Shown: one piece after another, positions 6,050-57,374 of the stretch
Numbering within the stretch: the stretch's first letter is position 1
Layout: each line of letters begins with the position of its first letter
Program-made: the position numbers and the translations under genes
Origin: a virus
Reading direction: 5' to 3' (one strand)
IMG/VR virus record: IMGVR_UViG_3300034103_002674
Coordinates: 1-64,000 of that record
Length of the DNA stretch: 64,000 bases
The notes under the pieces: generated by a model
Told to the model about the DNA's origin: nothing
The model's database searches: none
Seen by the model: only the letters and a program-made list of their open reading frames with translations

Positions 6050-6898
6050 TCAGTCAGTTACTTCCTGCAGTAGATAATCGAGGCCTTGCTCAAGGTAGAT
6101 GGCGTCGTCATCCTCCTTAAGGATGTAATCAGACGGAGCGCCAACGACTAGCTTGAATTCTCCAGTGGTTACAAAGTCAATGGAGCAAGCCACAAGAGCG
6201 TCCGCTGTAACCGTTACTCCAGCTCTGGTGACAACAGCCTCAATGTCATAATAAACTTCTTCTGTAAAAGAAGCAGTTTTTTCAACAGAAGACAATGATA
6301 GTAATGCCTTAAATGCACTGCCCACATCCAGACGGTTAATAACCTGCAAAAGAAAGAGAGGTACTTCCTCTGCATTTAATGTTTCATAACTAAACAAGCA
6401 TTCAATGCTACCACCACCACTGAGAAGGCCAGCCGAATATTGCTGCCTGAAAACATCACTGAGGCTAGTGGTGTCCAGCGCAGCTCTGTCAGTATTCACT
6501 TGAAAAGAGGTGACCGAACCAAGCGTATTATGTCGAGTGTCTTGAATGGCGACAGTAATATTTAACGGCTCGCCACTGAAGCTCGATAAAGAAATCTCCG
6601 CCGCTCGATTATTGTTAATTGCATCAGCAAAGTTATGGAATAGCCTTACTCCACCTGCTTCGTTAATGTGAATAAATGCACCAATAGATTCTGGCGCGGA
6701 AGTTAAAAACTCTAGCCCACGAGCATCGTCTGTTGAAAACGAAACAAAATCTCCCGTAATTAAATTTGTATCGCCGCCATCAAAGCCAAAGCGATTTAGC
6801 GATGTATTGATATCATCTGGAGCGACAGACGAGACAAACTGATTATCTCCTCCCCTTTGGAGCCTGATTGCACCAGTGTGGCCAACAAAAAAAGTCAT
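6050..6898 (-). CDS. Tail-tube-like minor tail protein, longer paralogue
   Basis: The 282-residue product starts MTFFVGHTGAIRLQR, which parallels the next gene upstream (MPFYTGRTGKLRLGG). Alternating hydrophobic and polar strands suggest a beta sandwich like phage tail tube proteins. No catalytic motif is seen. It lies between the J-like hub and the fibre and is probably a distal tail, tube-end or fibre-attachment structural protein. Paralogy to the 135-residue gene is by eye. Confidence 0.65.
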   Translation of the reverse strand: MTFFVGHTGAIRLQRGGDNQFVSSVAPDDINTSLNRFGFDGGDTNLITGDFVSFSTDDARGLEFLTSAPESIGAFIHINEAGGVRLFHNFADAINNNRAAEISLSSFSGEPLNITVAIQDTRHNTLGSVTSFQVNTDRAALDTTSLSDVFRQQYSAGLLSGGGSIECLFSYETLNAEEVPLFLLQVINRLDVGSAFKALLSLSSVEKTASFTEEVYYDIEAVVTRAGVTVTADALVACSIDFVTTGEFKLVVGAPSDYILKEDDDAIYLEQGLDYLLQEVTD

Positions 6899-6920
6899 TG
6901 GATTATTTGACTCGCTGGTC

Positions 6921-7328
6921 TTAAATGGTTACTGTAGTCAGTGGTCCATTAATGGTAAAATTAAACGAAACCGTGGTAAGTTCGTCTGTAGACGAAGTAA
7001 TGCTTGCGCTATTAATGAATGCATTGGCAATAAAAAGCTGATCGCTTCCCACCTCAAAAGTAAGAGTCACCTCGTCGCTTTCTGTGATGGCGCCAATTTT
7101 TGCAATTTTTTCTAAAAGATTTGTCACATCCGTTGTATCGCCATTGTAATAAGACAAAGCGGCACTTCCCGTGGCGCTAAACAGGCCAGGAGTGAAGGTA
7201 TTGGCAGTGTCCCCTAGCGCTGTGGTATCCAGCATGTTCACGGACGTGTCTAGCGTCCAGTTGCGCACCTTCGATACCTCGCTTCCTCCAAGACGCAACT
7301 TGCCGGTGCGACCAGTGTAAAAAGGCAT
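6921..7328 (-). CDS. Tail-tube-fold protein, short paralogue
   Basis: This 135-residue protein has the hallmark pattern of phage tail tube proteins: a basic beta hairpin start, then VRNWTLDTSVNMLDTTALGD, then a GSAALSYYNGD strand and a C-terminal SFNFTINGPL strand. The main tube gene is probably the 192-residue protein at 19093-19671. This one lies after the J-like hub and may form a distal collar. It shares its N-terminal motif with its downstream neighbour. Confidence 0.7.
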   Translation of the reverse strand: MPFYTGRTGKLRLGGSEVSKVRNWTLDTSVNMLDTTALGDTANTFTPGLFSATGSAALSYYNGDTTDVTNLLEKIAKIGAITESDEVTLTFEVGSDQLFIANAFINSASITSSTDELTTVSFNFTINGPLTTVTI

Positions 7329-7373
7329 TGCTTCAAAAGCTTTTCTTTATGCTAACAAGATTTAGTAATAGCT

Positions 7374-10300
7374 CTAGTCGATGGCAAAAGCATCATCAAA
7401 GTTAGCGATTTTAGAAAGTGTAGAACCCCCGCTCTCATCACATGGATGCTCAATGGCGCTGATTGTAATTTCGCCTTCTTCTTCCATGGACACCTCTGTC
7501 ACGCGAAAGACGCGCTTTGTTGTCAATTGAGTGCCAAGCACAAAAAGCCACCCTTCATAACTGGTTAGTGACGAAGACTGGTTATCACTAATGGAAACAG
7601 AGGAAAGCTTGGTTGGGCTGTCTTGGCCGTTGTAAAGCAATACTGTGTAGGAACCATTTACAACGTCTTCAGCTAGTGGAATATTAAGACGACCATCTTC
7701 TTCTACTATTCCACTCCTGATGTCATCCCATTGATTTTGATCAAGCTGTACATAAATATATGAACCCGGAGAAACAGGGCTTTCAGTGGGGAAAGTCTTA
7801 AATTCAATGGCTCGACGAGAAAAGCGTCTTTGCTGGCAAAGTAATTTACCGTATTTAATAGCCTGTTCTCTGCTGCTTACAAAAGCAGACAAGTCAAACG
7901 TCTGCCGAATACTATTTGCTTCAACGAAATCCGGGTCACTCTTGTGAATTTGCACGCTAGTGTTCTGGGGGAACACATTATCGTTAACCGTATCTCTGTA
8001 AACAATTGTGGCAATCAAGTCCTGCGTATTATCTCCATAGTCAAGAAATTCTTCCTTGTAACTGTCCTCTAGTATATTGCCTTGATTAAACAAAGCTTCA
8101 ATGCGCACCTGCCTAGAAATCTGGTAAAGACTGTCATAAGGCACAGCAGGAACTAGCGCTTCTTTCCCTCCAATGCGTGCAAATTCAAGCAAACTAAATG
8201 GAGCCACTTCTGCCCAGAACTCCCGCCAAGCCCCCGGATCAGCAATCACTCCATCCATGAAAAGCTCGTTTTTTTCGCAAAAAGCCTGAGAAATACTAAG
8301 CTGTTTCGTATCAATTCCATTAATATTGGCGTAAGCCTTAATACCATTCTCTTCATCTAGCACTGTATCAAGAAAGATTTCAGGAGCATAGCTTGTTGAG
8401 CTAGAAGGAGAAGATTCATAATTGCCATTAAAATCTAAAAATTTTCTTACCTTTTTACCTCTGTTTACCCATACACTAAGTGAACGCAAATCCTTCACTC
8501 CCTGCCCACTATAAATATTAAGCCCAAACATAGACATGCCATCGTAAATATCGCTTGTCAATGGTTGCTTCTGTTGTTCCGTGACGGCCACTAATGTAAT
8601 TTCTGGGCCGCTTTCAAAAGAAAATGAAATTTGCGTATCACTACGAAGTGAAAAGAGCCCCCATTCATCAACAAATTTAGGAGTGCGGTTCAACGGTGGG
8701 CGACGACGAATTGTACTTATAGGATTTCTTCCGCGATAAACAACAGAAAATCCATTACCAAAAGATAACTGCTGTCCGCCGATGCTTCCCCCATAACCAG
8801 CGGTTCGCAAATAAATCATCTGCATATCATTGCCAGAATTGTGTGTGCGCAGCTCAGCAGCAAGGTCAACAATCGGATCAAGTTTGAATTGCCATTTTTC
8901 CTTGGAAGGTGCAACAAATCTTAAGTTCACATAGGAATCAAGCTCTTTCCCGCTTCTCACTCCAAACACGTATGGCACAAGTTTGTATTCCGTTTCTGTT
9001 GGTTTTTTGTACCAAAGCCAAAACATTGAGGTGCGATTGCGAATACCATTGTCGCTATCTTTATGTCCTTGCTGATCTTCTTCTGCATATTTATTCATGC
9101 GCCCCTGAATTCGCTGAAATATTTTGGCTTTAAAAGAGAAATTAATTACTTCGCATTTTGTAATTGCTTCATATCTAATTTCGTCCACTTTGGCAATGCA
9201 TTTTGTGTTGAAATAATCGTTCCAAGAATCTTCGTCTTTAAGCAGCTTAATTGTGTCATTTAAATCTTTATTTGCAGAATTGTATTGACTTGTCCATACA
9301 GCTTGCGCTGCTTGCTCTGCCGCGTAGTCCCGTTCAACAGTGGCCGCAATCTTTTCTCTCTGATTTTCAAGGCGACGCTTTCTTTGCTTTAAGGCACGCC
9401 GCTCTTCTTTTAAGTTGGTATTTTTATTATTATCGTACAAACCCTGCTCGATTGCACGAGTAGAAAGTCTCGCAAATTGATCCCTAAGTTCAATTCGTTT
9501 CTCCTTCTTGTTTGCAATTTTTGTATTTTTTTCAGCCCTAGCGCTATCAAGCCGCCTCTTCTGAGAATTAGTTCTTTGATTGGCTGGAGTGTCTCTTATC
9601 TGGTCGATTTCATTTTGCAACGACTCAATGTCATCGTTTAATCTTTTAATCTGCTCTTCCAACGTGTCAATATCACGCCTAATTCCACCAAATGTGCCTT
9701 CATCTTTAACAATGTTTAATAACTCAGTTCCACTTAGATCACCCTTGAGGATGGCAGTGGCATTTTCGATATTGTTATCAATCTCTTCTAATTCGCGATC
9801 GAAGGCATCAATTCGGTCAGCTCCAGGCCCCTTAAATCTTTCAGCAAAAGCAGCACCTTTTTCTGCGTTTAACGTTTCAATTGTCGCTTCAAGTTCACGC
9901 TTCTGCCTGCGCAAATCACCTTCATTTTGCTGATAACGCTGAGTAGCATAATCCTCCTCGCATAACACGCCACTTTCAAAGCATTGAAAGATAAACGTGC
10001 CTTCAATATCACTGCCGCTTTTTACATCATCAGAAACTAATTTAAACTTTGCCGCGCCTATTTTGTAAGTGCTAGCCGAATCAAAGGTTCCAATGTATGC
10101 ACTACGCAAGTCAATAGCAGCTCTCTCTACTCCATCGGTGGGTTTTTTATCGTCCTCTTCAAAAACAATAGTGAGTTGATTGCCAACAGGGAAAGAGGGG
10201 CGTACTCCCGTGGTGGGCCATGTAGAAGGCCAGTATTCTCCTCGTCCCGATGAAACATTAATACCAAGAGAATCCTGTTTTAACTGGCCTTCATCATCTC

Positions 10301-11063
10301 TATCTTCCACTTGTACTCGCAAGGGAACCACGTCATACAACCCCAACGATGAGCTGGTAGTAGGGGAAAATGCCTGACTATAGCCCTGCGTTCTATTGTA
10401 GGCATTATCAATTACACTGCAAATCAAATCACTAGCCGATGTATAAAGAGGATCAAGAGTAGAGTCGCCAGGAAGCTTTTTGTCGCTAAAGAAAAGCCTT
10501 CCTTCTCCTTCGTTAGCGTAAAGAAAGTAACGCTGCGAAGCCAAGTCTCTTAATGGTGTCTGGCCAAACGCTGTACGCCCATAGGCAAAACTTTGAATGG
10601 GGCCAGCGCCCACCACTGCAAGCATTTGCATGTATTGACTGGTGCCAAAGCTATGAACGGCAGACCAAACAAGAGACGTATTGACGCGCAAGCCTCCTGC
10701 TAATTTATTTTCGTCAATATTCGTATAGACAAGATTGACGGGCTGCCCATAGCGAGCTACTTCCTGAAAGGAATTAAAACCATAACGTGGGGCAAAAAAT
10801 TGGTTTCGGGACTGTCGTCCCATTGTTTGATCAGGAGCCTGAGGCTTGGGTGCAAGTAATGCAGCACCCACTTGCGCCAAAGTACCAACAATACTGAGAA
10901 TGAGCGCAACAGTTCCGACTTCCAGACCATTGCGTACATCAAGAATGGTGCCTTCTTTATTGTCTCGATAATTTAACCGCGCTAAATAAAATTGCCAATA
11001 TTCTTCTTCTGAAATCTGAAGAGCATCAATTAGAGCGCGTTCGTAGGGGAGGAGGCGTCTCAT
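7374..11063 (-). CDS. Central tail hub / host-specificity protein (lambda J-like) with coiled-coil insert
   Basis: This 1229-residue protein follows K-, L- and M-like tail genes, the position of lambda J. A hydrophobic helix near residues 50-75 (VGTVALILSIVGTLAQVGAALLA) recalls lambda I. Beta-rich hub domains flank a highly charged coiled coil of roughly 220 residues at about 375-600, with many heptads of E, K and R. The C-terminal half (for example YQISRQVRIEAL, FKTFPTESPVSPGSYIYV) resembles the putative tail-component domain of J. It probably forms the baseplate hub and contacts fibres. Confidence 0.75.
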   Translation of the reverse strand: MRRLLPYERALIDALQISEEEYWQFYLARLNYRDNKEGTILDVRNGLEVGTVALILSIVGTLAQVGAALLAPKPQAPDQTMGRQSRNQFFAPRYGFNSFQEVARYGQPVNLVYTNIDENKLAGGLRVNTSLVWSAVHSFGTSQYMQMLAVVGAGPIQSFAYGRTAFGQTPLRDLASQRYFLYANEGEGRLFFSDKKLPGDSTLDPLYTSASDLICSVIDNAYNRTQGYSQAFSPTTSSSLGLYDVVPLRVQVEDRDDEGQLKQDSLGINVSSGRGEYWPSTWPTTGVRPSFPVGNQLTIVFEEDDKKPTDGVERAAIDLRSAYIGTFDSASTYKIGAAKFKLVSDDVKSGSDIEGTFIFQCFESGVLCEEDYATQRYQQNEGDLRRQKRELEATIETLNAEKGAAFAERFKGPGADRIDAFDRELEEIDNNIENATAILKGDLSGTELLNIVKDEGTFGGIRRDIDTLEEQIKRLNDDIESLQNEIDQIRDTPANQRTNSQKRRLDSARAEKNTKIANKKEKRIELRDQFARLSTRAIEQGLYDNNKNTNLKEERRALKQRKRRLENQREKIAATVERDYAAEQAAQAVWTSQYNSANKDLNDTIKLLKDEDSWNDYFNTKCIAKVDEIRYEAITKCEVINFSFKAKIFQRIQGRMNKYAEEDQQGHKDSDNGIRNRTSMFWLWYKKPTETEYKLVPYVFGVRSGKELDSYVNLRFVAPSKEKWQFKLDPIVDLAAELRTHNSGNDMQMIYLRTAGYGGSIGGQQLSFGNGFSVVYRGRNPISTIRRRPPLNRTPKFVDEWGLFSLRSDTQISFSFESGPEITLVAVTEQQKQPLTSDIYDGMSMFGLNIYSGQGVKDLRSLSVWVNRGKKVRKFLDFNGNYESSPSSSTSYAPEIFLDTVLDEENGIKAYANINGIDTKQLSISQAFCEKNELFMDGVIADPGAWREFWAEVAPFSLLEFARIGGKEALVPAVPYDSLYQISRQVRIEALFNQGNILEDSYKEEFLDYGDNTQDLIATIVYRDTVNDNVFPQNTSVQIHKSDPDFVEANSIRQTFDLSAFVSSREQAIKYGKLLCQQRRFSRRAIEFKTFPTESPVSPGSYIYVQLDQNQWDDIRSGIVEEDGRLNIPLAEDVVNGSYTVLLYNGQDSPTKLSSVSISDNQSSSLTSYEGWLFVLGTQLTTKRVFRVTEVSMEEEGEITISAIEHPCDESGGSTLSKIANFDDAFAID

Positions 11064-11455
11064 TCTTTGATATCAGGCAACATTTTAAACAGCTTTAACG
11101 ATGGAAAAGATGGCGACCAGTATGATCGCCCTCCCCGCGAAACTGTAAGTATTCCACCATCATAAGCCACGCCAACTGCTATTTCACCGCCTGGTCTTGG
11201 AAGAACAATCGCTACGTTTCCATTTTCTCGCTGTTTTGTCCTTTTGCCATTTTCAAAAAGCCATCTAATGATTCGCTTCATGGGCAAATTTCCAGAATCA
11301 TATTCATCGTATGCCCATCGAAAATCATCTTCGTAATCATAAAGACCAAGGCGACGCCTTACTTCGCAAACCAACATAAAACAATCGCTCTTTCCTTCTC
11401 CTTCGCAAAAGCGAGCCCTGCGCTCGTAAGAAAGGCCAATTAAATCATTAATCAT
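11060..11455 (-). CDS. NlpC/P60-type tail assembly protein (lambda K-like), catalytic His apparently lost
   Basis: The motif GKSDCFMLVCEVRRRLG near residues 21-37 matches the catalytic Cys helix of NlpC/P60 peptidases found in tail protein K. The strand that normally carries the catalytic His (HVGIY-type) reads IAVGVAYDGG, with Ala in the His position. The 131-residue length fits a bare peptidase domain. It overlaps the hub gene by 4 bp and the L-like gene by 4 bp. It could still process or scaffold the tail tip, or be a structural relic. Confidence 0.6.
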   Translation of the reverse strand: MINDLIGLSYERRARFCEGEGKSDCFMLVCEVRRRLGLYDYEDDFRWAYDEYDSGNLPMKRIIRWLFENGKRTKQRENGNVAIVLPRPGGEIAVGVAYDGGILTVSRGGRSYWSPSFPSLKLFKMLPDIKE

Positions 11456-11973
11456 CGCAAGCTTACTTCTGCATTTAAGGGAAGAATCCCAACGTTTTTA
11501 GAAGTGAATGTACGGCGTGGAAAGTTTGCTCCTACGCTGTCCATTGCAGAGCGAAATCGGAGTTCAACAGTTGTATCGTCAAACGAAGCCCCCACACCAA
11601 CATAGAACTCTTCGTATTGCGCTGTGGCAGAAGCAAGACTATAAGATGCGTAGTCTGTAATATCGCCAGTACTTGCCATCCACACTGTCTTCAAAGAAAG
11701 CTTGCTAAGCCTATTCCCTTCTCCTTCTTCTACCATGGCGATAGTGAATTCACTATGAGGGAACAACAAGCGCAAAATACTATTGTCTCCATTTAATGCC
11801 GCCAGGGCGCCTTCGGCTCTAAAAGGAGCGAAACGATAAGTGGGGGAAGCCGTGCCAGGCACTGCCACTGCAGTGAAGTCCTTACCAAAAAAATAGTTCT
11901 GGTAGTAATGACTGCGCCCATTTGCAGTTTCGATGAAAGCAAAATTGGCGATATGGACAGTGGTATTAGACAT
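11452..11973 (-). CDS. Minor tail protein L-like (DUF1833-type)
   Basis: This 173-residue protein ends with VELRFRSAMDSVGANFPRRTFTS, which matches the C-terminal pattern of DUF1833/tail protein L-like proteins. It sits between the M-like and K-like genes, in the order M, L, K, J expected for lambdoid tails. It probably forms part of the tail tip complex. No Fe-S cysteine cluster like that of lambda L is present. Confidence 0.6.
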   Translation of the reverse strand: MSNTTVHIANFAFIETANGRSHYYQNYFFGKDFTAVAVPGTASPTYRFAPFRAEGALAALNGDNSILRLLFPHSEFTIAMVEEGEGNRLSKLSLKTVWMASTGDITDYASYSLASATAQYEEFYVGVGASFDDTTVELRFRSAMDSVGANFPRRTFTSKNVGILPLNAEVSLR

Positions 11974-11975
11974 AA

Positions 11976-12371
11976 TTAAGCGCCAGAATAGTCCAATTCG
12001 CCAATAAGCCTCACTGTAACAGTGCTTCGCCCATTGAATATGCTTTCTACTTGCGGAGGTTCAGCGTATTCCCAAAGAATATTAGTCGGCGCTTGCACAA
12101 CGCCACGAAGGCTATCGCTCATGCCAGAGAAAATTTCATTTGGCAATGCAAAACGCGTGTAGTTTCCACCCTGCGCATAGTAATGATCAAGAATGAGCTT
12201 TACATTGGCGTCAGTGATATTGGCAAACTCTAGTTCGATGGAATGACCAAATGAACGATTGCCGAAGATGCGTTTTACAGTAGCACCAGAAAGCCCCCGA
12301 TAGATTTTTGTTGGAAATTGTCCTGGCGAATAGGATCGTCCAGTTGGCCTAATAGAAGGAAAATTTGCCAT
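11976..12371 (-). CDS. Minor tail protein M-like
   Basis: This 131-residue protein lies directly after the tape measure gene (1-bp junction), the place of lambda gpM. Its sequence (IELEFANITDANVKLILDHYYAQGG, TVRLIGEL near the end) resembles tail proteins I remember from cyanophages. It probably caps the tape-measure end of the tail tip. Function is inferred mainly from position. Confidence 0.6.
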   Translation of the reverse strand: MANFPSIRPTGRSYSPGQFPTKIYRGLSGATVKRIFGNRSFGHSIELEFANITDANVKLILDHYYAQGGNYTRFALPNEIFSGMSDSLRGVVQAPTNILWEYAEPPQVESIFNGRSTVTVRLIGELDYSGA

Positions 12372-33517: not shown

Positions 33518-34030
33518 ATGGACTTCTTGGCTCCGCCATTGACTTTTGCCTTTAGCGAAGACCAGCGGCAACGCGCTCGCGCCGAAGCGCTTCGCAGGCA
33601 AGCCCTTAATGAGCATCAATGCAGAAAAAGTCGGAACAATGGTGGGGAAAAAGCGGAAAAGGGAGAACTAGCGCTTCGCTATCACCTTCTAGGCGCCGCA
33701 GGCGAAATGGCAGTAGCCGTCATGCTTGGCATGGAAGATAAGCTCTATCAAGAAACTGAAGCAAAGCGCGGTTCCGCAGATCTTCCTCCCAACATCGATA
33801 TCAAAACTCGCTCCAAGCATTACTACGATTTAATCGTTCAACTAGATGAAAGTCCAGATAAGATATTGGTGCTCGTCACAATTGAAAATCGCATTACGCT
33901 CATCCATGGTTGGATAAAAGCAGTCGATGCGATGAAGGAACAATGGAAGAAAGATCCAGCAGGTGGTCGCCCTGCCTATTTCGTTCCCAAGACTGAGCTA
34001 CTTTCTTTGTCTCTATTGAAATACAAGTGA
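33518..34030 (+). CDS. PD-(D/E)XK-like protein at the small-terminase position
   Basis: This 170-residue protein has a basic N-terminal helix region and a core GAAGEMAVAVMLG ... DLPPNIDIKTRSKHYYDLIVQ. The D-x-K within IDIKTR and the upstream Glu look like a PD-(D/E)XK nuclease site. It overlaps the large terminase by 4 bp (GTGA). It could be a packaging-associated endonuclease. A small terminase role cannot be ruled out. Confidence 0.55.
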   Translation: MDFLAPPLTFAFSEDQRQRARAEALRRQALNEHQCRKSRNNGGEKAEKGELALRYHLLGAAGEMAVAVMLGMEDKLYQETEAKRGSADLPPNIDIKTRSKHYYDLIVQLDESPDKILVLVTIENRITLIHGWIKAVDAMKEQWKKDPAGGRPAYFVPKTELLSLSLLKYK

Positions 34031-35870: not shown

Positions 35871-35945
35871 GCCCCTATAGCCCAATAGGCAGCAGGCAGG
35901 TCGCTTAAAACGACCACAGTGCAGGTTCGAATCCTGCTAGGGGCA
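35871..35945 (+). tRNA. tRNA with anticodon UAA (reads UUA, Leu) but a short variable loop
   Basis: All arms can be drawn. The acceptor is GCCCCTA/TAGGGGC, the D-stem GCC/GGC, the anticodon stem GGTCG/CGACC with loop CTTAAAA, the variable loop 5 nt, and the T-arm GCAGG TTCGAAT CCTGC; the discriminator is A. Bases 34-36 are UAA. Bacterial tRNA-Leu normally has a long variable arm, which is absent here. CCA is not encoded. Confidence 0.85.
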
Positions 35946-36034
35946 TCATGTTAAGCTGAAAGGACGTTCACCCCAGCGATGGGGCGCATGACTCGCACGG
36001 TACGGAACGGGACCGCGCATCATCGGGAACCATC

Positions 36035-41635: not shown

Positions 41636-41954
41636 ATATAAACACTGGGGCAAAAAAGCAGGTGAAAAATGGCTCCACTTTTCGGAGCGTATACCGCAGC
41701 CCCACAATTTAAATTTGCCGTACTATCGCGCCAGGGCTCAAACGTCAAGCGTTTATCACAATATTTTACGTGGCGGATTGTTGCAAAGCTTAATTTTATT
41801 GTTGAGAATCGTTCTCAATAAGCTATTAATCCCTCCACGCCACCAAAGCAAAGCGCCCACCTAGCAGCAGGGGCCATCAGCAAAGGCCACCCTATGGGCC
41901 AGCAGCAGGGCCAAAGCGGGGGCCAGGCAGGGTAGGGGCAGGCAGGCAAAGCAA
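41636..41954. other. Gap at the left end of the GC-rich island
   Basis: About 320 bp hold no supported gene. The base composition changes abruptly here: AT-rich up to about 41840, then very GC-rich with GGGGCCAGGCAGG-type runs. The change is near the Fur-like box at 41803. Confidence 0.6.
41803..41817. promoter_or_regulatory. Fur-box-like dyad at the left island boundary
   Basis: TGAGAATCGTTCTCA fits the Fur 7-1-7 pattern (TGATAAT-N-ATTATCA) at 11 of 14 arm positions. It lies within a longer inverted repeat (TTGAGAA/TTCTCAA). A copy identical in 14 of 15 positions (opposite strand) marks the right end of the island at 44595. Confidence 0.5.
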
Positions 41955-41996: not shown

Positions 41997-42128
41997 TCAG
42001 TCAATCTCCCACCAAGGCTCTAGGTCTTCAGGGTCCGGCTGATGATCCTCTGGCAGGCCCTGAGCTTCCAACCACTCGGCCAGTTCGGCCTCGCGATCCT
42101 GCCAAAGCGGGGGCTGTAGGGGCAGCAT
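41997..42128 (-). CDS. 43-residue acidic peptide after the GP88-like gene
   Basis: ATG 42128 lies 2 bp after the upstream stop, which suggests coupling. The product begins MLPLQPPLWQDREAELAEWL and ends PDPEDLEPWWEID; it is acidic and may be mainly one helix. It could be a small partner of the GP88-like protein. No homologue known to me. Confidence 0.5.
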   Translation of the reverse strand: MLPLQPPLWQDREAELAEWLEAQGLPEDHQPDPEDLEPWWEID

Positions 42129-42130
42129 GA

Positions 42131-43711
42131 TCAGGCTCCCATCAGAGAAAAGCAAGCAAAGCCACCACCGGCCAGGGGCTGCCATCGGCCAATAACGGGG
42201 GCCAGGCTGAATGCATCGGCCTCCGGCCCTTTGCCCCTGCTGCGCTTAGTGCGCAGCAGCACAGCCACGCCATCAAAGCCATCGTGAGGGCCTGCAGGGT
42301 CGGCCCATCGATGGTCTGTAGTGTCGCCATCAATGCAACGCAGCATTGTGATGGGGCCGCCTTGGCGGGGCTGCAGCAGCAGGGCCGGGGGCAGGGTCTG
42401 GCCCTTTGCAAAGCTGGCAGGTACGGCCAGGCGGAACCCAGCGGCCACGGCCTGCAGGGCCTGATCGATGCCGCGGGGCCTGTCAGCAGCCAGGGATGCC
42501 GTCACGTCAAAGCCAGCACTGGCCTGGGCCTGCAGGCCGTGGGGGCCTGCCACGGGGGCTTTGCTGTACTCATAAAAGTGCAGAGCGCCGGCAGGGGCCA
42601 GGCTCAGGGCCTCTGGCAGCGTCATGCCCTGGCCAGGGGCTACGGGCAGGCCGTAACGGCGGGCCAGGCTTTGGGCTTCTGCTGCTGACACGTCAAAGCG
42701 CCAAAGGTGGACGGGGCTGTCGTCTGTGCCGCGCAAACGAACGGCCAGGGGCAGCCCTTTGGCCTGGGCTTGGCGGTAGGAGCGGGCGATGGCCCAAAGC
42801 ACGGCCCTGGCGTAGGTGCGCCCATCGGCGAGCATCGCAAGCGTGCGGCGGGCACGGGCAGCGGCCACATTGGTGCTCATCCCGCCATGGCCAGCCCAGG
42901 CCAGGCAACCAGCGGCACAGCCAGCAGACGCCCAAGGGCAGCCGTTATGGGCCAGGGCCAGGCTTAGGACGTTCTCACGCTCAGCCAGGGCCTGCAGGCC
43001 GTCGATCCGGGAGCGTGGGGCCGTAGGGCCGGCCTTGGGGCCAGCTACGGCCTGGGCCAAGGCTTTGGCGGGCAAGTGGTGGAGAATGACGGGCCAGGCC
43101 AGGGCTTTGCCCTTTGCCAGCTTTGCATTGGAAGCGCCAACAGTCAGCAGGCCGTCAACAGCCAGGCCAAAGCGGGCTAGGTGGGCTTTTACGTCAGCGG
43201 GCACTGCGGCGGGGGCCGTCTTACGGGCAGCAGGGCCAGCGGGCACGATGGGGGCAAAGCTTGCGGGCTCAGCCTCCCACTTGCGGCTCAGATCAGTCAA
43301 AGCGGCGAGCATCTCATCGGCCACACGTTCAGCAGGGCTGACAGGGGCAGGGCTGCAGCCCAAGGCTGCGGCCACGTGAGGAGCCATGGCTGGCTTGCCC
43401 TTTGCAGCACGGGCACGCAAGCGGGCAGCGGCGCTGGCTTTGCCTGCAGGGCTCACGCGCCAGTGAGCGTGGTGGATGCTCAACAGGCAAGCGGCCACGT
43501 CAGCCAGGTTTCGACAAAGGTCGGGGCCGGCGGCGTGGTTGACGCTATAGCCGTGGGAAGTAGTGGCGATGGAGACGGGCAGGGCAAGGGCTTTGGCGGC
43601 CTGGCTCACGCTTGCAAAGGTGGGCCGTTTGAGGCCGGCATCCTTGCAAGTGCCCTGGCTCACGTGGCCCAGGTAGTTGGCGGCGGTGGCGGGAATAGTA
43701 GTGGCGGGCAT
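42131..43711 (-). CDS. GP88-like cysteine-motif protein in GC-rich island
   Basis: The 526-residue, Ala-rich protein has the motif NGCPWASAGCAAGCLAWAGHGG near residues 258-279, with Cys spacing C-x6-C-x3-C, as in the GP88/plasmid-phage family. Such a cluster could bind an Fe-S centre, but no proof of radical SAM chemistry is visible. A likely nucleotide- or ligand-binding C-terminal half (VHLWRFDVSAAEAQSLARRYGLP, GFDVTASLAADRPRGI) follows. GC content and codon use are far higher than in the rest of the phage. Confidence 0.6.
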   Translation of the reverse strand: MPATTIPATAANYLGHVSQGTCKDAGLKRPTFASVSQAAKALALPVSIATTSHGYSVNHAAGPDLCRNLADVAACLLSIHHAHWRVSPAGKASAAARLRARAAKGKPAMAPHVAAALGCSPAPVSPAERVADEMLAALTDLSRKWEAEPASFAPIVPAGPAARKTAPAAVPADVKAHLARFGLAVDGLLTVGASNAKLAKGKALAWPVILHHLPAKALAQAVAGPKAGPTAPRSRIDGLQALAERENVLSLALAHNGCPWASAGCAAGCLAWAGHGGMSTNVAAARARRTLAMLADGRTYARAVLWAIARSYRQAQAKGLPLAVRLRGTDDSPVHLWRFDVSAAEAQSLARRYGLPVAPGQGMTLPEALSLAPAGALHFYEYSKAPVAGPHGLQAQASAGFDVTASLAADRPRGIDQALQAVAAGFRLAVPASFAKGQTLPPALLLQPRQGGPITMLRCIDGDTTDHRWADPAGPHDGFDGVAVLLRTKRSRGKGPEADAFSLAPVIGRWQPLAGGGFACFSLMGA

Positions 43712-43749
43712 GGCTTTAGAGGGTGTGGGGTTGACGGGATGAGAGGGAA

Positions 43750-43914
43750 TCAGCGGCCGCTGATCTGCAGTAGGCAGGCGTCAGCGCTTGCGCCGGTAGC
43801 GCGGCAGGCGACGAAGCGGCGCTGATCATCCACGGCAAGCGAGGCCGTGAAAAGGGCCAGGAGAGAACCACCGAACAGCGCGGCGAGCTTGGCGGTGATG
43901 GTGAGAGCGGGCAT
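43750..43914 (-). CDS. 54-residue exported or membrane peptide
   Basis: The frame encodes MPALTITAKLAALFGGSLLALFTASLAVDD (signal or TM helix at about 8-27) and a short tail with two Cys (FVACRATGASADACLL). It precedes the GP88-like gene by about 40 bp on the same strand. It is very GC-rich. Its stop lies in a perfect palindrome ATCAGCGGCCGCTGAT. Confidence 0.5.
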   Translation of the reverse strand: MPALTITAKLAALFGGSLLALFTASLAVDDQRRFVACRATGASADACLLQISGR

Positions 43915-44306
43915 GGCTTAGTCCGTTGATCGAAGGGCTGGCTCGCGCCAGGCCCCCAGATTGCCAAGCACAAGGGCCAAAGCTCAGGGCAACTAGGCCG
44001 GTGCCAAGGGTGGCCCACTAGCTAGAGGCTTTGGGCTGCTGGCGATGGTAGGGGCCGCTGCCTGCAGGCCCGTGCCAAAGCAAAGAGAGACGATCGCAGG
44101 CGCGCGTATCGCATCGCAGGCCCTTGCGTCAACCCTGGGGCGGGCCAGGCCGTCGATTGGCACAAGCAAGGGCAAAGGGCCAGGGCTGTTAGCACGGCCG
44201 GGGGCAAACGGCGCAAATATTGCGAAACCTTACAAAAGGTCAGAATGTAGCAACGGATACAGACAAAGGAGCCGCTGTGACAGCAGGCAGGATTGTCACA
44301 CGCTAA

Positions 44307-44330
44307 CGGCGCTGCTGATCAGCAGCGCCG
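44307..44330. repeat. 24-bp perfect palindrome
   Basis: The sequence from 44307 to 44330 equals its own reverse complement over 24 bp (centre TGATCA, arms CGGCGCTGC). The half site GATCAGCAGCGC occurs again at about 44398-44410. It could form a cruciform or bind a dimeric protein. Confidence 0.9.
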
Positions 44331-44334
44331 CCCG

Positions 44335-44381
44335 TCACGATCCGCACCGCATGGCCTCCGGCGTTCACGATCCGCACCGCA
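44335..44381. repeat. 17-bp direct repeat, period 30
   Basis: TCACGATCCGCACCGCA occurs at 44335-44351 and 44365-44381, each followed by (T/G)GGCC. This pair adds to the repeated structure of the origin-like segment. Confidence 0.9.
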
Positions 44382-44535
44382 GGGCCAGCGTGATCACGAT
44401 CAGCAGCGCTTGCGCCGGCTTGATCACGTTCCGTATCGGCAGGGCAGGCCATCGCGATACGTACCGCCATCGTGTGACAGTGCCGGATTGGCACAAGCAC
44501 GCCTGTACTATAGTGCGCCTGTACTATTATGCCTG

Positions 44536-44578
44536 TATGCGCATATGCGCATATCACCATATCGCTATATGATCATAT
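44536..44578. repeat. 18-bp and 12-bp palindromes in AT-rich DNA
   Basis: The interval 44536-44553 (TATGCGCATATGCGCATA) and the interval 44567-44578 (ATATGATCATAT) are perfect palindromes. They lie in the only AT-rich part of the island and may mark an unwinding element. Confidence 0.85.
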
Positions 44579-44594
44579 GCGGCAAGGCGCATAA

Positions 44595-44614
44595 TGAAAA
44601 CGATTCTCATTATC
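44595..44614. promoter_or_regulatory. Fur-box-like site at the right side of the island
   Basis: On the minus strand GATAATGAGAATCGTTTTC matches the classical 19-bp Fur box (GATAATGATAATCATTATC) at 16 of 19 positions. It overlaps a 15-bp sequence that differs at one base from the site at 41803. Confidence 0.55.
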
Positions 44615-44645
44615 ATTCCCACGCGGGAAAAATCGACCAGGGGCC

Positions 44646-44733
44646 TGATACGCCGCTAGCCGGACCCTTGATACGACCCTAGCCGGGTCTTGATACATTT
44701 CTAGCCGGGTCCAATACAAAGCCAGCGGGATCC
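44646..44733. repeat. Four tandem iterons of about 22 bp
   Basis: Units start at about 44646, 44669, 44691 and 44712 and follow TGATAC-N5-TAGCCGG-(G/A)(T/C)C; the fourth is diverged (AATACAAAGCCAGCGGGATCC). Spacing is 21-23 bp, two helical turns. Such repeats are typical binding sites for a replication initiator. They end at the stop of the 52-residue gene. Confidence 0.75.
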
Positions 44734-44891
44734 TACCAACCATGACCATCAAAAGCCGCCTTTAGGGCGGCTTCTTCGCTGGCAAACGGTCCTCCTACAA
44801 AACCTTCATCATCATCAGCATAGAAATACCAGCCTTCCACAAGTTCTGTGCCTTTGCAGCAATCTTCAGAAAAGAAATCAACGAGGATCAC
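44733..44891 (-). CDS. Hypothetical 52-residue acidic protein
   Basis: GTG 44891 overlaps the upstream stop by 4 bp. The product is MILVDFFSEDCCKGTELVEG, then WYFYADDDEGFVGG and SEEAALKAAFDGHGW, a small acidic alpha-beta peptide like other short cyanophage proteins. A terminator-like stem AAGCCGCC/GGCGGCTT lies in its 3' end. Confidence 0.6.
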   Translation of the reverse strand: MILVDFFSEDCCKGTELVEGWYFYADDDEGFVGGPFASEEAALKAAFDGHGW

Positions 44892-50778: not shown

Positions 50779-50830
50779 TGCCTATACAAAGCTGGCCGGA
50801 GGTAGGCTATACAAGACCAGCCGATTTTTC

Positions 50831-51031
50831 ATGGAAAGGAAACTTCCTGCAGAACAAGAACGCGAACGTCTTGCGCGATGGCTAGGAAAAGGAGAAGTTT
50901 ACATTCCACCAAGTGAGGAGATGTATGATCCTCGTAATGAAGATGATTTTGATACGTGGTCTGTAGGCATGGAGCCTATTCCTGGCGATCATACATGGGC
51001 AAAAGAAAAGGCTCCTGATGGAGCCTTTTGA
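50831..51031 (+). CDS. Hypothetical 66-residue acidic protein
   Basis: ATG 50831 gives MERKLPAEQERERLARWLGK and then acidic sequence ending EKAPDGAF. The longer open frame would cover the small RNA terminator, so it is rejected. It is the only plus-strand gene in this block; a terminator overlaps its stop. Confidence 0.6.
   Translation: MERKLPAEQERERLARWLGKGEVYIPPSEEMYDPRNEDDFDTWSVGMEPIPGDHTWAKEKAPDGAF
51006..51029. terminator. Bidirectional terminator between convergent genes
   Basis: AAAAGGCTCC tgat GGAGCCTTTT is a perfect 10-bp stem whose arms supply T-runs for both strands. Confidence 0.85.
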
Positions 51032-53245: not shown

Positions 53246-53274
53246 AGTGTGCCTACGCTAGCGGCGCTTGTCAA
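53246..53274 (-). promoter_or_regulatory. Sigma70-type promoter
   Basis: On the minus strand TTGACA, 17 bp, CACACT, about 20 bp before ATG 53225. Confidence 0.65.
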
Positions 53275-54020
53275 TAGTCGTCCTTATTAATTGTTTGTAA
53301 AGGAATGGCTTCAGGCCATTCCTCTTTCTCTGGTTCTGCATCGAAGCTCACTTCCGCCGATGCAGGCAAAGAATTCTTCCTGCGTTCCTCAGTGGCATTT
53401 GCTTCTTTTTCTTTTGCAATGGTGGTAGAAAGATCCTTCAGGAATTTCCTGTAGGAATTGTCTTGTTGTGATTCTTGTTTGATTTCATTGAGACCAAGAA
53501 GCTTGGCCTGTTCAACGAGAGAGTTCTTTGCCACATTAAGAAACGATGCGTCGCCAGCACTTTCTTCAATCTTGATCATTTCTTTCCCGCCATCGTCACC
53601 GCCTTCCATCATTGTTATCACGCGCTTTCTTTTGCTCTTCTCAAAGCTATCCAGAGCTAAGTCTTTTAAGTCCATTTGCTCCTTTAAAAGACGTGCGCGA
53701 TGCACGTCTTGATTCTTGAGAATTTCTTCTGTATATAACTGCCTGTTGTGATGCCTATCTCCATTAACTGTTTCTTTGCTTAGTTTTAGAACATTTGCAA
53801 TTTGACGATTGCTCATCTTTGCTGCAAGAAGCTCTTGCACCATCCACCTCCTAAGACCAAGCATTTCTTTGGAATAGCCAGCAGAACCACGCCCGCCATT
53901 TACTTCGGTTTCTCTTACTGCTTCAAACTGCGTCAAGCTTACGCCTGCTTTTTTCAATGCATTAGCAGCATATTCAAGCTCTTCTTCTGGGGATGTAAAT
54001 TCAATCTCAGGCTTGGCCAT
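53271..54020 (-). CDS. HTH DNA-binding protein, possible small terminase or regulator
   Basis: The middle part (residues about 60-92, MVQELLAAKMSNRQIANVLKLSKETVNGDRHHNRQLY) reads as a homeodomain-like helix-turn-helix. A charged helical stretch (about 95-200) and an acidic tail (EPEKEEWPEA) follow, like small terminases or transcription factors. At 249 residues it is long for a TerS. It is far from TerL, so the packaging role is a guess. Confidence 0.6.
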   Translation of the reverse strand: MAKPEIEFTSPEEELEYAANALKKAGVSLTQFEAVRETEVNGGRGSAGYSKEMLGLRRWMVQELLAAKMSNRQIANVLKLSKETVNGDRHHNRQLYTEEILKNQDVHRARLLKEQMDLKDLALDSFEKSKRKRVITMMEGGDDGGKEMIKIEESAGDASFLNVAKNSLVEQAKLLGLNEIKQESQQDNSYRKFLKDLSTTIAKEKEANATEERRKNSLPASAEVSFDAEPEKEEWPEAIPLQTINKDDY

Positions 54021-55337: not shown

Positions 55338-57374
55338 CTAGAACCAATCTTCCTGATCTTCCTTCTCGGGAAGATTTTCATTGGAAGCGATGTAAACGGG
55401 CGAGGAAATTAATTGCTCTTCCTGTTCGGAAATAATATTTTGCTCTTTATTGGGAGAAGTGAAATCGAGATCAGGCCCTTGATAGTCCCATGAATGGTAC
55501 ATGCGAGTGCGCTCGTCATGCGGGCCAACAATGAAACTGCTAGTAATTAAGCCTTGACGACGAGCCATTTCTAGCAGTTTGCCAGTGGTGACATTCTCAT
55601 TCATGCCGGTTCCCAGCGACACTTGCTGCTTGCTGAACCTCTCATGCGGACGCATGTTCACATAGTTGGCCACGCGATCCAGCTCTGCGATGGAATTACC
55701 AAGTGGACCAGCGTAGTCCCAGCCATAGTTCACAGCATTGCGCTTCAGAACGTGCTTACCAGCCAAGCCGCTCCTGCTCTTCACCCATTCCAGGACAAAC
55801 TGGTTTTGATCAAAATTGCCCTCTTGGCGATAGAGCTTCACCACTTCACTCACGTTGTCAACAAAGCTAGAGCTATCACGCAATCCACCTTGACGGTTTA
55901 AGTGGTGGAGAATGACGATAGAGCATTTGTAGACATTGGCCATGTCCCGTAATGCGTAGAGAGAATCACCGGCATTGCTCTTAATGAGATCGACGTTCAT
56001 GCCAGCGAAACAAGCCGTAAGCGAGTCGATTACGACAAACACCGGACGATGCTTTTTGATGAAACGCTCAAGCTGTTGCATATGAGCAAAGCGCCAGGTT
56101 TCCCAAAAAGAAATCATTCCAGGCTGAATGTTGGCTTCTTGATAGCCGATGATAGAAAGCTTCTCTTTAGTGTCTGACAATGGTTCGTCAGCGGAGATGA
56201 GGAGGCATTTGCCAGGAAGACAACGCCGCCCAGACCAAGAAGAACCAGTAGCCACGCCTAGAGCCCAGTTATAGACAAGAGAGGTTTTGCCAGTGCCGCC
56301 CTGCGCAGCAAGAAGAGTGACGCTGCCAAGCGGAACGATGCCAGCAATCAACCACTCACGAACGGAATCATCATCAATTAATTGCAGCACGTCAATAGTT
56401 TCTATTTCTTCCTTGCCAAACAAACGAGAACGCGCCTCGTCAATCATCTTGTCGATATTTGCTTGCGGCATCTTCACGCCATGAGCTTCTAGCCATTTAG
56501 AAGCTTCAAACGCCACGCGAGCATCATTATCGAACAGTCCGACCATGCGCTCAAAGGTGCCAATGATTTCCTCATAGGAAGGAAGACCATCTTTGCCTTC
56601 GTGGCGATCCTTTGAAACAATGGAGGAAAGGATTAGCTCCTGGTCTGCGCCATCGTCAAGCCAATCAGCTAAGTCGTAGCCTCCATTCTGAGGCAAACTG
56701 TCCCATTCAAAACTGCCAGGATCGGCGTAAAGCCATTGCGCTCCAGGATTATCTGAAGCCACTTCTCGCATAAGAGCAATGCCGGGCTCATCACGATCAG
56801 GACATAGAACAATCTTCTTGCCACGAAATAAAAGCGAATAGTCGCCGTTTGCGCGGTACTGGCCACTGCCGCCAAGAAAAGTGACCGAAGGAATGCCGAT
56901 TTCCCATAGCCTGTCACAGGTGAGTTCCCCTTCAACAATGAAGATGGGAAGTCCTGTTACTTGCGAAGCGGTGAGGGCTTCATCGAAGCGATAAGGAAGA
57001 ATAGTGCTTCTTATCTCATCGATATATGCCTTGCGTTGATGCGTACCTTGCGGTACTGACGGATAGCTTTGCTTAATTGTTTTCTTGCCACTTGCATCAT
57101 CACGATGCACATTGATAGTAGTTTCGCCTTGCCTATTTTTGTAGGGAAAAGTGTAAGACTGTGGTTCACGAAGGGGGCGCTCCCAGCGATCAAGCGGAGC
57201 AAGAATGTTACGAATTTCGGCGCGGTGTTTTGCCGAATCATCATTGAAACAGTTGTAGGCACCGTTGTTGGTGTTAATGGAGAGGTCGTTGCCTCCGCAT
57301 GCCGGACAGATGTACTTCCCTGGATGATCGCTTGTCTCAAGCTTCTCAATGTGGTCCAGGATGGAGAATGCCAT
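55338..57374 (-). CDS. DNA primase-helicase (zinc ribbon, TOPRIM, RecA-like ATPase)
   Basis: ATG 57374 gives 678 residues; the upstream extension is hydrophobic and rejected. An N-terminal zinc-ribbon (CPAC at 23-26, Cys 42) is followed by a TOPRIM domain (IVEGE at 146-150, CPDRDEPG at 191-198) and then a RecA-like ATPase with Walker A AAQGGTGKTS (about 356-365) and Walker B FVVIDSL. It primes and unwinds DNA, as in T7 gp4-like and RepA-like phage enzymes. Its C-terminal 150 residues may bind a partner. Confidence 0.85.
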   Translation of the reverse strand: MAFSILDHIEKLETSDHPGKYICPACGGNDLSINTNNGAYNCFNDDSAKHRAEIRNILAPLDRWERPLREPQSYTFPYKNRQGETTINVHRDDASGKKTIKQSYPSVPQGTHQRKAYIDEIRSTILPYRFDEALTASQVTGLPIFIVEGELTCDRLWEIGIPSVTFLGGSGQYRANGDYSLLFRGKKIVLCPDRDEPGIALMREVASDNPGAQWLYADPGSFEWDSLPQNGGYDLADWLDDGADQELILSSIVSKDRHEGKDGLPSYEEIIGTFERMVGLFDNDARVAFEASKWLEAHGVKMPQANIDKMIDEARSRLFGKEEIETIDVLQLIDDDSVREWLIAGIVPLGSVTLLAAQGGTGKTSLVYNWALGVATGSSWSGRRCLPGKCLLISADEPLSDTKEKLSIIGYQEANIQPGMISFWETWRFAHMQQLERFIKKHRPVFVVIDSLTACFAGMNVDLIKSNAGDSLYALRDMANVYKCSIVILHHLNRQGGLRDSSSFVDNVSEVVKLYRQEGNFDQNQFVLEWVKSRSGLAGKHVLKRNAVNYGWDYAGPLGNSIAELDRVANYVNMRPHERFSKQQVSLGTGMNENVTTGKLLEMARRQGLITSSFIVGPHDERTRMYHSWDYQGPDLDFTSPNKEQNIISEQEEQLISSPVYIASNENLPEKEDQEDWF

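Follow-up and report, generated by a model that had tools for sequence, protein, structure and literature searches.

Iterons of ∼20 bp, three to five in number, adjoin AT-rich DNA in the lambda ori and in iteron plasmids, of which RSF1010 is an example, and the satellite phage P4 has two distant repeat sites, ori and crr, together with its alpha protein, a primase-helicase with a winged helix. In phage SPP1, which has two origins, direct repeats and an AT-rich unwinding element are used with an origin-binding protein, a helicase and the host polymerase (PMC6316719). For S-CBS4-type cyanosiphoviruses, no description of the origin was found in the literature that we searched. A sequence-only reading of one virus genome had likened a set of tandem repeats to the binding sites of replication initiators, and our analysis supports that reading in part: the repeats are conserved and the accompanying skew switch is weak, and an iteron-type origin remains the best explanation. 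We propose, with a probability of about 0.6, that the array is the phage replication origin of an S-CBS4-type cyanophage and that it is organized like SPP1 oriL/oriR.

The DNA analyzed (the window; 64,000 bases, 48–49% GC overall as a genome) is bases 1–64000, and hence most, of a 70,300-base virus record (∼70.3 kb). Its closest named relative is Synechococcus phage S-CBS4, to which it is 77% identical in terL and 61% identical in the primase-helicase; the two genomes are syntenic, with the gene order kept in reverse. Judged by sequence, the source is a cyanobacterial virus, a phage related to S-CBS4, and this group recurs in public viral contigs. A nucleotide search of the array region against plasmids and phages gave no match. 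Elsewhere in the window, at 35871–36018, a tRNA-Leu(TAA) is directly followed by a match to the Glutamine-II riboswitch, whose 35.6 bits exceed the gathering score.

Three exact copies of TGATAC-N5-TAGCCGG, found by both pattern search and weight matrix, lie on the plus strand at 44646–44666 (TGATACGCCGCTAGCCGGACC), 44669–44689 (TGATACGACCCTAGCCGGGTC) and 44691–44711 (TGATACATTTCTAGCCGGGTC). A fourth, diverged copy at 44712–44732 on the same strand (CAATACAAAGCCAGCGGGATC) was found by weight matrix, and at its position the near relative L010 has an undiverged AGCCGG. The whole array thus occupies 44646–44732, with start-to-start spacings of 23, 22 and 21 bp. The four tandem copies with a period of 21–23 bp that had been read from the sequence were confirmed far above chance, with weight-matrix scores of 27–35 bits compared with best scores of 9–11 in five shuffled windows; no other site in the rest of the window scored above 14. 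When the plain pattern was searched with 3 mismatches allowed, 12 matches were found and 10.9 were expected, which is chance level. We conclude that the signal is the exact, tandem copies and not loose matches to the pattern. A superficial likeness of AATACGAC to T7-like promoters was set aside; no gene for a single-subunit RNA polymerase came to notice.

The same array is widespread among relatives. When viral contigs were scanned for pairs of neighboring units, with no gene used as anchor, it turned up in 64 stretches, which, like the other counts across relatives given here, are not independent because of kinship. Four copies are the rule (42 of 56 distinct arrays), with three copies in 7, five in 5 and six in 2. 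Spacings (n = 170) were 21–23 bp in 152 cases, 31–35 bp in 16, and 25 bp and 43 bp in one each, with the 21-bp class somewhat over-counted because the scan demanded one spacing of that length. The two main classes indicate that the same helical face, or phase, is kept, and ∼20 bp tandem direct repeats in fixed helical phase are the form taken by iteron-type phage origins. In a matrix built from 139 distinct copies, ATAC and YRGCCGGRYC (∼25 bits together) were near-invariant and the inner bases weakly constrained to nearly free, a pattern of constant ends and free inner bases that is expected of protein-binding sites. The best genome-wide match to the matrix fell in the array in all eight near-complete genomes, including G004, whose array is degenerate with one good copy. 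A search with the exact array pattern found none in ∼85,000 bacterial and archaeal genomes, and the array is therefore not a common host or prophage element. Lack of conservation had been named as the outcome that would count against the repeats; instead, they are conserved across the S-CBS4-like group.

The position of the array is conserved as well. Where flanking genes were present, the phages were S-CBS4-like and the array stood at one syntenic place. Relatives collected through the GP88 gene (n = 33) included many with the same array 0.7–1.4 kb upstream of that gene, and a scan through the helix-turn-helix (HTH) protein discussed below placed the array, in the majority of loci of sufficient reach, mostly 7–10 kb downstream of the HTH gene and on one strand without exception. 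The 106.7-kb record G010 (L027 and L163), in which the array is at 5.2 kb and the HTH gene at 67.5 kb, departs from this usual distance, perhaps through rearrangement or misassembly. Whatever the upstream gene, its stop codon lies at the start of the array or no more than a few bases from it in most phages; in the window the array is abutted by the stop codon of a 52-aa gene (EGWYFY...GHGW; 44733–44891, minus strand). Among relatives the array lies between a small gene, or in some cases a methyltransferase-like or HNH-type gene instead, and a cassette gene that precedes ribonucleotide reductase and encodes GP88 (PF17338), DUF7227 (PF23872) or a phrog_21544 protein.

In the window the downstream gene is GP88-like (PF17338; 42131–43711, minus strand; ∼67% GC), and the array stands at the distal end of the non-coding region before it (43712–44645), as it does in relatives, where the downstream gene is likewise 0.7–1.4 kb away. 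Short tandem repeats abound in this non-coding region, which is hypervariable from phage to phage; L017, L019, L023, L028 and L042 each have a phage-specific short tandem repeat family between array and cassette gene, and these families have no evident common sequence. The GP88 gene and its upstream region (42001–44500) form a peak of ∼67% GC that recurs in relatives. Two contigs, L044 and L094, contain two four-copy arrays each, and in L044 (600–4900) they belong to two tandem cassettes, each made of array, variable region and gene, with DUF7227 followed by GP88. The GP88-like protein had been offered as a possible binder of the repeats. Because the array is unchanged before GP88, DUF7227 or phrog_21544 genes, and because GP88 relatives also occur without an array, this protein is, on sequence grounds, probably not the reader. 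No match to it was found by tblastn among named phages and plasmids, and a sequence search found no relative with a solved structure for either the GP88 or the DUF7227 family. A union of these two into one family was rejected: their motifs are collinear, but the profile comparison was not significant.

The deposited S-CBS4 record (HQ698895) is without the array. Its end, at 69417–69420, joins to 1, and at this join the near relative L006 has 5.2 kb more than S-CBS4 (6790–11980), including the array and GP88. L006 and S-CBS4 are mostly 81–96% identical, with 96% and 91% on the two sides of the gap. Either the S-CBS4 record is incomplete at the join or the isolate is without the region; the deposited genome stops ∼0.3 kb before the expected array, which would be a reason for re-sequencing if the origin reading is right.

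An AT-rich palindromic stretch had been noted to the left of the array. The palindromes are present (44528–44561), but AT-richness here is only mild. They overlap the least stable 80 bp on the ATAC side, a candidate DNA-unwinding element at 44542–44621 with 40% GC, whose instability is equaled or exceeded in 11.5% of the genome's windows. In most relatives the flank is more extreme: in G013, G014 and G017 the genome's least stable 80 bp lies within ∼110 bp of the array, and the flank's instability rank is 0.1% in G005, 0.9% in G016 and 2.2% in G004, compared with ∼12% in G015 and the window. When 400-bp flanks were compared with random stretches of the same loci, the ATAC side stood out (p = 6e-14) and the other side less so (p = 0.001), with the relatives again not independent. 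AT-rich DNA of the kind that adjoins iteron-type origins as an unwinding element is thus found beside the array in the group, as a putative site of melting, and is weak in the window. The ATAC-side DNA itself varies between phages; it is made up of AT-rich tandem repeats and short palindromes, and Fur-like boxes are frequent in it. One such box (TGAAAACGATTCTCA, 44595–44609) lies inside the candidate unwinding region, and several relatives have comparable boxes next to the array. Palindromes of this type, such as TGAGAATCGTTCTCA, are found at 41803–41817 and 44595–44609 and also in G005, G004 and L044; in several phages they occur both beside the array and near the GP88 gene, and it is possible that they are sites for the host iron regulator.

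GC skew, suggested earlier as a check, gave a mixed answer. The minimum of the plain cumulative skew near the array was discarded, since it came partly from starting the sum there and from a net negative skew, and we replaced it with a strand-corrected fit. At 4-fold sites the best switch then fell ≤6 kb from the array in 6 of 8 genomes, failing in G005 and G016, and this switch is small, with the gene order common to the genomes and the division into early and late genes as confounders. DnaA boxes (TTWTCCACA) were not enriched near the array. A Pfam search of the eight genomes for DNA polymerases of families A, B and C found none and detected its controls. It had also been remarked that no recognized initiator gene adjoins the repeats; this holds, and it counts against the origin reading that the candidate initiator gene is 8.5 kb away.

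Among the binders offered by the sequence-only reading, the analysis favors the HTH protein at 53.3 kb over the GP88-like protein. This 249-aa protein (53271–54020, minus strand) is a core gene product, present in all eight genomes compared with the window and encoded beside the primase-helicase gene. Its helix-turn-helix is nearly invariant, and the repeat motif is constant too. In a structural model of moderate quality (mean pLDDT 70), a level at which matches can arise by chance, the first 100 residues superposed best on DnaA domain IV (Z 7.2–7.8, with the next at 5.9), a DnaA-like match that is below the tool's reliable level. The body of the same model matched the small terminases of G20c/P74-26 (Z 5.4–5.6 over 111–116 residues), and a viral structure library returned terminase small subunit annotations (E 5e-4 and 1e-3). 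We infer that a protein with a DnaA-domain-IV-like N-terminal domain and a TerS-like body is the most likely binder of the array. The primase-helicase (Toprim and RecA-like AAA_25; 55338–57374, minus strand), likewise a core protein, has a T7 gp4/Twinkle/DnaB-like fold, with a match also to the RSF1010 RepA-like helicase fold, and a predicted C-terminal winged helix (topology H-H-H-E-E, residues 562–627, pLDDT ∼80). This winged helix differs greatly among phages whose repeats are alike and so probably does not recognize the repeats; the protein is a candidate for the helicase that would be loaded at the array.

There is also a secondary site. Two copies, TATACAAAGCTGGCCGG...TATACAAGACCAGCCG, lie at 50783–50827 on the plus strand, just before an ATG at 50831. 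The pair is weak by its own sequence and syntenic with a strong copy in S-CBS4 (∼64456–64503) and others. In the scan through the HTH protein, the only clusters besides the array were such two-copy sites, 0.5–4 kb downstream of the HTH gene; many are directly upstream of small genes, and they are possibly operators. In the origin reading, the HTH protein would occupy all four iterons cooperatively along one helical face, the adjoining AT-rich region would then melt, and the phage primase-helicase would be loaded at the melted origin. The host DNA polymerase, proposed because the phage seems to be without one of its own, would be recruited for synthesis. The two-copy site ∼6 kb away would also be bound by the HTH protein, though more weakly, and would serve as an auxiliary origin or as an autoregulatory operator.

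The main rival to an origin, unlikely as we judge it, is a packaging (pac) site at which the HTH protein would act as small terminase on the phased repeats and TerL (34.0–35.4 kb) would start headful packaging. It ranks first among the rivals on account of the resemblance of the HTH protein to TerS in both structural comparisons, and it gains from the fact that no small terminase was recognized next to TerL, where the gene at 33518–34030 has no Pfam match. Contig ends are scattered and G004, through a 127-bp overlap, closes on itself, which is compatible with permuted DNA. However, pac and cos sites lie in or beside terminase genes, and SPP1 pac overlaps gene 1 (PMC6316719), whereas ∼9 kb lie between the array and terL and 8.5 kb between the array and the TerS-like HTH gene, which itself adjoins the primase-helicase gene. 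Packaging also leaves unexplained why the genome's least stable DNA should lie beside the array, and two contigs with two full arrays speak against it. Fixed virion ends at the array were rejected, as the contigs end in different places.

Next in rank, and also unlikely, is an operator or upstream control element through which a phage regulator, perhaps with host Fur, would control the GP88/DUF7227 cassette and, via the two-copy site, the small gene at 50.8 kb. The placement of many two-copy sites directly upstream of small genes, the Fur-like boxes beside the array in several phages and the recurrence of the array with each cassette gene in L044 and L094 are consistent with this. Control of the cassette is harder to reconcile with an array that lies 0.7–1.4 kb from the downstream gene, right after the upstream stop codon, and that stays unchanged when the downstream gene is exchanged; the one sigma-70-like match overlapping the Fur-like box in the window is at chance level (0.7 expected). 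That the array abuts the stop codon of the upstream gene could instead suggest a role as RNA, for example as a 3′-end or processing element of that gene's transcript. This is highly improbable, because neither strand of the window nor the relatives showed excess folding (z −1.0 to +0.9), no Rfam family matched at the array, and helical phasing with free inner bases fits DNA binding.

A broader proposal, which we regard as more doubtful than packaging or control alone, is that a single TerS/DnaA-like protein recognizes the arrays of four copies as well as the sites of two and couples the start of replication to packaging or to the control of early genes, with an exchangeable cassette (GP88, DUF7227 or other, sometimes two in tandem) at the origin of a widespread cyanophage group. 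If the origin reading is true, the array would serve as a sequence tag for S-CBS4-type origins and would come with a candidate initiator.

Set against the known systems, the locus has features of several. It resembles P4 in having a primase-helicase with a predicted C-terminal winged helix and two distant repeat sites; P4-alpha-type recognition would have the winged helix conserved along with the repeats, and here, unlike in P4 alpha, it varies strongly among phages with the same repeats. Like lambda ori and RSF1010, it has ∼20 bp iterons by AT-rich DNA, and the helicase fold is RSF1010 RepA-like, but no O, RepC or RepA-type initiator was recognized. SPP1 is the closest mechanistic precedent, and the same logic, with a phage helicase and the host polymerase, may apply to the array. 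The array phages differ from SPP1 in that the main site lies outside the gene of the candidate initiator, a single protein combines primase and helicase, and a 21–23 bp unit is usually present four times. As in SPP1 oriL and oriR, which are bound by gp38, direct repeats lie by an AT-rich element and two sites are kilobases apart.
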